The notes under the pieces were generated by a model. That model searched no databases, had not been told where the DNA came from, and saw only the letters and a list, made by a program, of their open reading frames with translations. 64,000 bases of DNA from Calditrichales bacterium MX18-03 (lineage in GTDB: Bacteria > Bacillota > Clostridia > Lutisporales > Lutisporaceae), in NCBI GenBank assembly GCA_021083345.1, contig JAJGRE010000002.1, positions 62,001 through 126,000 of the forward strand, given 5' to 3'. Made by a program: the position numbers and the translations under genes. Shown piece after piece: positions 51,096 through 53,886 of the stretch; the first letter of the stretch is position 1, and the number at the start of each line of letters is the position of its first letter.

Positions 51096-51320
51096 TTAGA
51101 AGTGCCTGAAGGGACCACCGTTATATCCGAAGCCAGCCATGTTCAATAACGGCTGCAGCTTTACTTCCTTAAGAAAAATGAGGGCAAGCATAAGCATAAA
51201 AGTACGGTCGCATTTCCGGTCTATAACAAATATAAAAATGATAGCAAGGAGAAAAAAATCCTCTGCACTTAATTGCTTTAAAATATTCCTGGCATTAAAC
51301 AATAAGTATTCAAAGTTCAT
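51096..51320 (-). CDS. Small membrane protein, last gene of the small-gene cluster
   Basis: Seventy-four residues from MNFEYLLFNARNILKQLSAEDF; GGGAGC lies 4 bases upstream and the ATG overlaps the region of the preceding stop. A hydrophobic segment FFLLAIIFIFVID is followed by RKCDRTF, a second segment FMLMLALIFLK and a Gly/Phe/Asn tail. This two-helix layout with a charged turn is similar to small sporulation-associated proteins of clostridia, but no family is assigned. It starts 1 base from the stop of the 204-residue gene. Confidence 0.65.
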   Translation of the reverse strand: MNFEYLLFNARNILKQLSAEDFFLLAIIFIFVIDRKCDRTFMLMLALIFLKEVKLQPLLNMAGFGYNGGPFRHF

Positions 51321-51321
51321 T

Positions 51322-51936
51322 TTAGCTCCCTGCCTTGTTTCCAAAAGTCTCAAAGAAACCCATGATGCTGATGATGCGGATGCAGTCATCGATGCTTTTC
51401 TGCCTGCCGTCGGATACAAACGGTTTGATGGAGTTCAACAGAATGACGCGCTTATCGTTTTTTACAGCACTCGCCGAACTGTTGCTCAAGAGGTTGAAAA
51501 GGAAATTGTAATCAAATCCGCTTCCGGCTCCGTTGCTGCTTTTGCTTTCTCCGTTTGGATCATTATCCTGCCCTACTTCATTTTTTTTTTGAGATGTCAT
51601 GTTGGATAGCAACATGCCCATCAATTGGCTCCTCAAACCATCCATATCGTTGTTTTTCAGCATCTCCACCAGCTTGTCGCTGTTGCCGTCCCTGGACTTG
51701 TTCCTGCTCAGGTAGTTGATGATATCGTCCTTGAGTCCGTCAATGTCACCCTTGTTGATCTTTTCCTTGACAGAGTCGTCTATGTTGAGGCTTTGATTAT
51801 TGTTTATTTCATTGATGATCATATTTTTCATATCATTTGCAGACATGTTGTCAACGTTCATTCCCTTAAGCTGATCAGCCAGCTTGCTTTTCATATCGTT
51901 CATGTTGCTCCCGTCACTGCCTCTTCCAAATGACAT
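51322..51936 (-). CDS. Asn/Asp-rich protein of unknown function in the small-gene cluster
   Basis: A 204-residue soluble protein behind AGGAGGAGCGCAT. It is rich in Asn, Asp, Lys, Met and Ser: NVDNMSANDMKNMIINEINN, DSVKEKINKGDIDGLKDDI, KLVEMLKNNDMDGL. The pattern IDGLKDDI/MDGLRSQL repeats. The C-terminus (about 140-204) is more folded, with FLFNLLSNSSASAVKNDKRV and DDCIRIISIMGFF. Not recognised. The gene is immediately followed by a small membrane protein gene and preceded by Cys-rich peptide genes on the same strand. Confidence 0.7.
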   Translation of the reverse strand: MSFGRGSDGSNMNDMKSKLADQLKGMNVDNMSANDMKNMIINEINNNQSLNIDDSVKEKINKGDIDGLKDDIINYLSRNKSRDGNSDKLVEMLKNNDMDGLRSQLMGMLLSNMTSQKKNEVGQDNDPNGESKSSNGAGSGFDYNFLFNLLSNSSASAVKNDKRVILLNSIKPFVSDGRQKSIDDCIRIISIMGFFETFGNKAGS

Positions 51937-51958
51937 ATGCGCTCCTCCTACTCAATCC

Positions 51959-52168
51959 TTAATAAATGCACTTCCTGCATTCTCTTTTATTGCTCCGGTA
52001 TGAAACATAACACAGTTTCTTTTCTTCACAATCCGGCACCGGCGGTGTGCTGTCGCAGCACGGATCGCAGACAGGTGCTTTCGGCTGGCAGTTGGGCATT
52101 AACAGAAACGCCAACAGGATGATGATGACCCAACCGAAATTATCACCGAATAGATTATCCAATGCCAT
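51959..52168 (-). CDS. Small membrane protein with a Cys-rich tail
   Basis: Sixty-nine residues from ATG after AAGGGGGTT. One transmembrane helix (GWVIIILLAFLLMP, about 12-26) is followed by a Cys-rich, Pro-rich tail with CQPKAPVCDPCCDS, CEEKKLC and CRKCIY (eight cysteines). The tail probably lies outside the helix and could bind metal or form disulfide cross-links. It belongs to the same-strand cluster of small membrane genes. No family is recognised. Confidence 0.65.
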   Translation of the reverse strand: MALDNLFGDNFGWVIIILLAFLLMPNCQPKAPVCDPCCDSTPPVPDCEEKKLCYVSYRSNKRECRKCIY

Positions 52169-52256
52169 AACCCCCTTACGACTAAGAACATTTCCCTTAA
52201 TCCCATTGTATTCAGATTCCGGCTTTTGGTTACAGCATAAAAGACATAAAATTACG

Positions 52257-52283
52257 GCAGGTCGGCACTGCCGCCAACCTGCC
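52257..52283 (-). terminator. Hairpin after the 68-residue peptide gene
   Basis: Stem GGCAGGT/ACCTGCC followed by GTAATTTTATG on the minus strand. A partial internal terminator in the cluster. Confidence 0.5.
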
Positions 52284-52293
52284 GGCTTTTTTC

Positions 52294-52500
52294 CTAAACC
52301 CCGAATCCGAAAGTTCTTCCAATACCGCCGAATGCGATAACTGCCAGTATGATAATAAAGAAGTATCTGCTTTCAATACCCCAGGTGCAGCAGGATGCAA
52401 GCAGGATGAACAACAGCAGCAAAAGTAAAAAGGAATTGCACCCAAAATCTCCGATAGGAGCAACTGCAACAGGAGCAGCGCATCCGCAACCGTCTGCCAT
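52294..52500 (-). CDS. Two-helix Cys-rich small membrane peptide (paralog 3)
   Basis: Sixty-eight residues behind GGAGGTGCCGTT. The layout is MADGCGCAAPVAVAPIGDF, then GCNSFLLLLLLFILLASCC, a polar turn WGIESRY, and a second helix FFIIILAVIAFGGIGRTFGF. It is a close paralog of the genes at 52869 and 53146, differing at about a dozen residues. Four to five conserved cysteines flank the first helix. The role is unknown; it could be a spore-coat or membrane peptide. Confidence 0.8.
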   Translation of the reverse strand: MADGCGCAAPVAVAPIGDFGCNSFLLLLLLFILLASCCTWGIESRYFFIIILAVIAFGGIGRTFGFGV

Positions 52501-52546
52501 AACGGCACCTCCACTTCCATTTTATTTTCAAATTGACTGTGTCCGA

Positions 52547-52798
52547 TCAGCAGCCTCTGAAGAATCCGCCGAAGCCCGGGCACAAGAAGAAGATCAGAAC
52601 TAGAATCCATATCCAATTGCCACCGAAAAATCCGCCACAGCCGGTCCCGCAGCCGGATCCGCCTCCGAAACCAAAGCCCGGGCACAGGCAGAATAAGATG
52701 ACCAATATCCAAATCCAGTTAGAGCCGAAGAGGGAGCCAAAACCCGTACCACATCCACAGCCTGCTCCAGGCGGTGTGCAGCAAGCACCTCCTGACAT
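52547..52798 (-). CDS. Gly/Cys-rich small membrane peptide with an internal duplication
   Basis: Eighty-three residues from the ATG 8 bases after GGGAGG; an ATG six codons earlier lacks a site. It begins MSGGACCTPPGAGCGCGTGF. Two copies of a ~31-residue unit follow: GSNWIWILVILFCLCPGFGF and GGNWIWILVLIFFLCPGFGG. Each unit is one short aromatic transmembrane helix capped by Gly and Cys. It lies between two of the two-helix paralogs on the same strand and is probably part of the same system. Confidence 0.78.
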   Translation of the reverse strand: MSGGACCTPPGAGCGCGTGFGSLFGSNWIWILVILFCLCPGFGFGGGSGCGTGCGGFFGGNWIWILVLIFFLCPGFGGFFRGC

Positions 52799-52868
52799 CA
52801 CGACACCTCCCTTCAAAAAATGTTTTCTTTTGTGCTTCCTGATGGTTCGTCTTCAGTAAAAGAGTCTA

Positions 52869-53078
52869 CTAGACGCCGAAACCAAAGGTTCTGCCAAAGC
52901 CGCCGAAAGCGATGACAGCCAGGATGATGATAAAGAAGAAGTTGTTTTCTCTACCCTGTGTGCAGCAGGATGCAAGCAGGATGAACAGTAACAGAAGGAG
53001 CAGGAAGGAGTTGCATCCGAAAAGGCCGCCAACCGGTGCTGTTGCTACAGGAGAAACGCATCCACAACCTAATGACAT
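52869..53078 (-). CDS. Two-helix Cys-rich small membrane peptide (paralog 2)
   Basis: Sixty-nine residues behind GGAGGTGTAATAT. MSLGCGCVSPVATAPVGGLF is followed by GCNSFLLLLLLFILLASCC, the turn TQGRENN and FFFIIILAVIAFGGFGRTFG. Both the protein and DNA are very similar to the copy at 53146; the turn between the helices is the most variable part. No family is recognised. The conservation of the first helix and its cysteines under divergence in the turn suggests selection on the membrane core. Confidence 0.8.
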   Translation of the reverse strand: MSLGCGCVSPVATAPVGGLFGCNSFLLLLLLFILLASCCTQGRENNFFFIIILAVIAFGGFGRTFGFGV

Positions 53079-53145
53079 ATATTACACCTCCTATCTGGCA
53101 TATTTATGATGAGTGGGTTCTTACATACTGTCTGATGTGTCTTAC

Positions 53146-53355
53146 CTATACTTCAAAACCGAAGGTTCTTCCAATACCGCCGAAAGCGATAACTGCCAGT
53201 ATGATAATAAAGAAGTATCTGCTTTCAATACCCCATACGCAGCAGGATGCAAGCAGGATGAACAGCAGCAGGAGCAGCAGGAAGGAGTTGCATCCGAAAA
53301 GACCGCCAACCGGTGCTGTTGCTACAGGAGCAGCGCATCCACAACCAAATGCCAT
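53146..53355 (-). CDS. Two-helix Cys-rich small membrane peptide (paralog 1)
   Basis: Sixty-nine residues behind AAAGGAGGTGTCGTT. MAFGCGCAAPVATAPVGGLF precedes GCNSFLLLLLLFILLASCC, VWGIESRY and FFIIILAVIAFGGIGRTFGF. The two hydrophobic segments make a probable helical hairpin. Cysteines lie at 5, 7 and 22 and as a pair after the first helix. The N-terminal Gly/Cys region with a Leu-rich helix faintly recalls YjcZ-type sporulation peptides, but the match is not close enough to name it. Confidence 0.8.
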   Translation of the reverse strand: MAFGCGCAAPVATAPVGGLFGCNSFLLLLLLFILLASCCVWGIESRYFFIIILAVIAFGGIGRTFGFEV

Positions 53356-53521
53356 AACGACACCTCCTTTCTTTTAAAGAAGCGTTTTGTTCCTTTTGAG
53401 ATATAGACATGCTATTTTTCAGGCATTCAGCCTTCCGATCCGAAGATCCATGTTTTGGGAAATGTCTTAACAGAAGTTCATCCTATGCAATAGCGGAAAT
53501 GAATCGGCCTTGCTGTTTTCC

Positions 53522-53680
53522 TTAGCTGAACAAGCACTTCAACTTGCCGTCTGCTCCGAGGGCCAGGATTGCCAGCAGTATGACAAATAGCATTCTACTG
53601 TTCTTATTGCCTGATGCAATCAATATAATAAGAAGCAGTACCAATAAAAACATATTGCTACCGCCAACAGAGATCTCCAT
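53522..53680 (-). CDS. Small two-segment hydrophobic peptide, first gene of the cluster
   Basis: Fifty-two residues from the ATG after GGAGGGTACGG; longer upstream starts lack a site. MEISVGGSNMFLLVLLLIIL is followed by IASGNKNSRM, a second segment LFVILLAILALG and the tail ADGKLKCLFS. It shares the helix-turn-helix membrane layout and an AxG(A/G) second-helix end with the downstream paralogs but lacks their N-terminal cysteines. A CATAGTAT element (complement of 53728-53735), 15 bases after AACC, is a possible mother-cell (sigma-K/E type) promoter. Confidence 0.7.
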   Translation of the reverse strand: MEISVGGSNMFLLVLLLIILIASGNKNSRMLFVILLAILALGADGKLKCLFS

Positions 53681-53886
53681 CCGTACCCTCCTTCCCGGGA
53701 TTAAGGTTGTTTCCTGTTCCCACTTCCATACTATGTACAATTCCGTCTTTGGTTACAGGTGAAGCAAAAAAAAAGAAGAAGCCGTCGAAAGCAGCCTCCT
53801 GGAGCCTGATATGATTTCTCTTCTGTTAATTCTGATAAAAGTCAGTTATACTATACATAATTACTGCCATTGAAAGGAGTTTTATC

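Follow-up and report, generated by a model that had tools for sequence, protein, structure and literature searches.

A conserved cluster of small hydrophobic hairpin proteins with a putative late-sporulation promoter in a family of Clostridia

The window, a stretch of 64,000 nucleotides from a 4.69 Mb Clostridia genome (G000), carries on its minus strand, at positions 51096-53680, eight small genes (g1 to g8) which, with a probability that we put at roughly two in three, would form a late mother-cell operon whose products are spore-envelope microproteins built as hydrophobic hairpins. Because a putative late-sporulation signal is found together with unnamed protein families in a conserved order, the encoded peptides are promising as envelope components of the spore that have so far been overlooked. 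Catalogues of clostridial spore-coat proteins are poor, since most of the parts are short and lineage-specific, and several microprotein families that lack a database model can now be assigned a common, testable late-sporulation promoter.

All eight ORFs lie on the minus strand. The cluster starts with g1 (53522..53680, 52 aa), a divergent two-helix paralogue of the two-helix hydrophobic peptides encoded by g2 (53146..53355, 69 aa), g3 (52869..53078, 69 aa) and g5 (52294..52500, 68 aa), which we call family P. Between g3 and g5 lies g4 (52547..52798), coding for a Gly/Cys-rich protein of 83 aa with two NWIWILV segments. The product of g6 (51959..52168, 69 aa) has a single hydrophobic segment followed by a Cys-rich tail, g7 (51322..51936) encodes an all-helical soluble protein of 204 aa, and its partner g8 (51096..51320, 74 aa) has a charged loop between two short hydrophobic segments. 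Ribosome-binding sites of the GGAGG type or similar were found for seven of the eight genes; the g8 site, GCAGGGAG, lies partly within the last stretch of g7, and a single base separates the g7 stop codon from the g8 ATG. The first-pass annotation had described eight minus-strand genes with strong ribosome-binding sites, a duplicated NWIWILV segment in g4 and Cys-rich members, all of which were recovered, the Cys-rich members being g4 (10 Cys) and g6 (8 Cys). Comparison with relatives gave pN/pS values of 0.31-0.54, i.e. amino-acid changes are suppressed relative to silent ones, and because of these values and the gene order conserved throughout the family we regard the eight as genuine genes and not as chance ORFs.

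Pfam and NCBIfam searches with all eight proteins at E values up to 1 yielded chance-level matches at most, YjcZ not among them. The initial statement that the peptides belong to no named family is thereby borne out, and the match to YjcZ that had been named as fatal to their novelty did not appear. No account of the cluster turned up in searches of the literature. Judged from sequence, it appears to consist of unnamed protein families, probably late-sporulation microproteins.

The g2, g3 and g5 proteins, reported at the outset as three near-identical two-helix peptides, are indeed 83-91% identical and share a GCNSFLLLLLLFILLASCC core, and g1 has to be added to them as a fourth, divergent member of the family. 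Silent differences between the three genes (pS 0.28-0.64 versus pN 0.07-0.13) show that these are paralogues that have been maintained, and not an artefact of recent origin. Both hydrophobic segments of family P, FLLLLLLFILLA and FFIIILAIIAFGGFGRTFGF, are almost invariant across 63 copies; the Gly/Cys/Pro head is of variable length, and a copy may have anything between 0 and 6 Cys. Cys7 and Cys20, numbered by alignment position, occur in many copies, no Cys column is universal, and the conserved cysteine pattern expected of a Cys-rich coat or exosporium protein was not found in these copies. The cysteines had been called conserved; this is right in so far as two positions are frequently occupied, but the invariant part is the hairpin. 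Because the two segments hardly change while head and cysteines vary, the hairpin core is likely the functional part of family P, with cysteines frequent and not required. Structure prediction placed helices at residues 21-38 and 45-57 of family P with low confidence, and the models of family P and g7 (pLDDT 59 and 55, respectively) proved too weak for an annotation by structure. In one genus (genus g3; L069, L064, L042) a divergent P type, NNELLILIILFVLLAASPSLGLDSSYFFIIIMAVIGIGG, is seen in pairs with a P copy of the normal type, and in genome G002 a 50-aa GYGYGYP-repeat peptide (L042:8905-9057), which resembles Gly/Tyr-rich coat peptides, adjoins two P copies.

Upstream of g1, some 46 nt from its start codon, we found a sigma-K-like promoter, TAACCAAA-N11-ACATAGTATG (53727..53755, minus strand), in which AC and CATAGTATG are 16 nt apart; sigma-K promoters have a spacing of 16-17 nt. 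The pattern AC-N15..18-CATAnnAT[AG] is present within 220 nt upstream of 24 out of 24 peptide-led transcription units examined, unlinked copies included, where shuffled sequences lead one to expect 0.33 (background 0.027 per 220 nt), a count to be read with the restriction that the alignment used for it had also served to derive the pattern and that the 24 units share ancestry and are not independent. Judged by this motif, all 24 units have the AC -35 and the CATA-type -10, 16-17 nt apart, that are expected of a sigma-K regulon member. The longer pattern TAACCAAA-N11-ACATAGTATR has two matches with zero mismatches in the 4.69 Mb genome, one before g1 and one before an unlinked P copy; at two mismatches the genome contains 29 matches versus 33 for the reversed-pattern control, i.e. 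no excess. Sigma-K and sigma-E promoters of C. difficile have a common -10 and differ in the -35, which is AC for sigma-K (PMC3789822), and the cluster motif has the same layout as these sigma-K promoters, an AC -35 with a CATA-type -10. The window genome contains an intact sigK (TIGR02846) as well as SpoIVA.

Directly after the -10 element, at the likely start of the transcript, lies a conserved block, GAAGTGGGAA...AACAACC (53705..53726, minus strand), which could be aligned in most units of the family. An RNA element in this 5' region was considered and rejected, as Rfam gave no match in the cluster region including the 5' region and the block has no unusually stable fold. Between g5 and g6 we noted a GC-rich 13-bp hairpin with a weak T tail (52255..52284, minus strand, z -5.0), which appears terminator- or attenuator-like, and behind this strong hairpin, before g6, a second promoter-like TAACCAAA-N11 element (52204..52232, minus strand). 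Similar hairpins precede g6 at three loci of relatives (L047, L049, L066); counterparts of the second element are found before g6 at the same three loci and before g7 at three others (L051, L062, L068). In genus g3, where g7 heads a unit of its own that is unlinked from the peptides, a full CATA-type motif plus a variant is located upstream of g7 (L051 and L068).

Family P was detected in 20 of 21 genomes of the same bacterial family (the window's own excluded), mostly in several copies, and is nearly missing outside this family. The first-pass annotation had proposed a check of gene order, and the order proved to be kept across the family from DegS to the CNNM transporter, although individual genes within g1-g8 have been gained or lost: DegS, DegU, AlbA/RecG-like, TPR, flavin reductase (opposite strand), g1, P copies, g4, P, g6, g7, g8, CNNM transporter. 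One genus has the peptides at a different locus from g7-g8 (L040 and L041, both in one genome). Extra single P copies are present at other sites, one of them in the window genome (C8:520.8 kb, L039).

The last two genes reach far beyond the family. The C-terminal domain of g7, with the motif RI.LL.S.KPF.S..RQK.ID.C, is widespread in Clostridia and was found in 123 of 291 sampled genomes of the class (74 of 181 genera), which is more than 40% of the genomes; g8 was found in 57 of the 291. Nearly always g8 comes after g7: of the 46 genomes outside the bacterium's family in which g8 was matched, 42 have g7 within 1 kb of it, and this pair is unnamed in the databases searched. SpoIVA is present in 112 of the 123 g7 carriers (Fisher p 5e-11, computed on genomes that are not independent samples, several of the exceptions being incomplete assemblies), and g7 was not detected in 96 of 208 SpoIVA-bearing genomes. 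Of 112 genomes outside the family, 22 have a SleB gene, confirmed by TIGR02869, no more than 2.5 kb from g7, and at the loci inspected there the order is gN, g7, g8, SleB, gN being the gene before g7 in other Clostridia. The neighbourhood resembles the SleB-YpeB germination operon in that g7-g8 of other Clostridia stand directly before the SleB gene, but neither g7 nor g8 matches SleB or YpeB. The window genome has its sleB on the same contig at a distance of about 900 kb, with a YpeB-like gene behind it (so called from its position and length), and because SleB sits elsewhere in this genome its link to the cluster is indirect. An unrelated double-helix hydrophobic peptide, SELLFFILVFLLLF, was found within 2 kb of g7 in all 14 genomes with a strong match, so that in other lineages, too, g7-g8 have hydrophobic hairpin peptides as partners, though unrelated ones. 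At L135 the gene before gN-g7 codes for a W-rich peptide with a score against the g4 profile. As to a fusion of gN into g7, comparison of the N-terminal half of g7 with gN gave a short partial alignment (hhalign probability 4%) and no support. The link to sporulation that had been proposed at first sight is now a strong one, given the sigma-K-like promoters, the co-occurrence of g7 with SpoIVA and the SleB genes beside g7-g8 in other Clostridia.

In the operon that we propose, sigma-K RNA polymerase would start at 53727-53755 in the mother cell, with a probable second start at 52204-52232. The transcript would supply four hairpin peptides of one family (g1, g2, g3, g5), the W/Gly/Cys-rich g4 with its double segment and the one-segment, Cys-rich g6, together with the helical soluble g7 and its hairpin partner g8. 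We infer for the peptides a location and function in the spore envelope: they may be inserted into the outer forespore membrane or the inner coat, or packed against it, their Gly/Cys heads could be cross-linked in the coat, and g7 might serve as a helical adaptor with g8 as its membrane anchor. Possible, if rather doubtful, is a more general arrangement in which g7-g8, with gN and sometimes SleB, would be a class-wide spore-envelope scaffold to which each lineage adds its own unrelated hairpin peptides; together they would make up a proteolipid layer on the outer forespore membrane and so govern cortex access or activation. The SleB neighbourhood offers a direct test here: does a small membrane pair aid the cortex-lytic enzyme in lineages without a YpeB gene behind SleB?

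Short hydrophobic hairpins in several copies behind a late mother-cell promoter motif, with SleB next to g7-g8 in other Clostridia, could also be holin-like, membrane-permeabilising peptides that aid mother-cell lysis at the end of sporulation, with nearby cortex or cell-wall enzymes as partners. We consider this unlikely, as a holin can do without eight distinct products, without heads rich in Gly and Cys and without a soluble helical protein that is conserved, and SleB is annotated as a germination enzyme and not as a lysis enzyme. B. subtilis YjcZ is tiny and hydrophobic, and its family is presumably that of PF09680 / TIGR01732. The cluster peptides share these properties and a promoter motif of the sigma-K type with yjcZ, a member of the B. 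subtilis sigma-K regulon (PMC517825), and could be diverged members of this or another known tiny-protein family; given that no sequence match was detectable in the searches above and that they have two hydrophobic segments compared to one, such a descent is quite improbable. A further difference from YjcZ is their putative multi-gene operon including g7-g8. Clusters of C. difficile controlled by sigma-K, such as the coat/exosporium genes of the CD1067 region (PMC3738446), resemble the window cluster in that both comprise late mother-cell genes (for the latter as suggested by the motif) for small lineage-specific hypothetical proteins, some of them Cys-rich; no match was found between them, and in the window cluster it is the hydrophobic core that is conserved, not the cysteines.

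Small size, tandem paralogues and cysteines would suit signal peptides or bacteriocins released from a Cys-rich precursor, but it is the hydrophobic hairpin that is conserved and not a mature peptide, the Cys number ranges as widely as described above, and no gene for a transporter, protease, modification enzyme or receptor was seen in the conserved neighbourhood, so that we hold this to be very improbable. Of the roles suggested by the first-pass annotation, the spore coat is thus favoured over signalling by the late-sporulation evidence, and peptide signalling found no support. Repeated small hydrophobic ORFs are typical of type I toxin loci. That the cluster is a tandem array of such toxins with antisense RNA antitoxins nevertheless deserves very little credence, as the region has no Rfam match and the operon order is conserved, with a common sporulation promoter motif and g7-g8 linked to the peptides.

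Similar motifs were noted elsewhere in the window genome. The paralogues L154 and L155, which lie in tandem (C7:56-57 kb), are each about 260 aa long, contain several Cys and are preceded by a TCACCAAA-N11-CATA motif; they are possible exosporium or coat proteins, and near the unlinked P copy an unnamed 100-aa protein (L039:9633-9935) has its own TAACCAA-type motif. For the motif-led genes at L152 (75 aa), L154/L155 and L167 (100 aa) no Pfam or NCBIfam family was found, with a DUF3980 match below threshold only. In the relative G010 (L191, G010:C31:27500-30900) sigK is split into an N-terminal half (516-869) and a C-terminal half (2467-2865), between which lie a 70-aa ORF and then a serine-recombinase-like ORF of 454 aa (1140-2504), which makes a very small skin-like element. 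The sigK genes of G006 and G013 are split as in G010.
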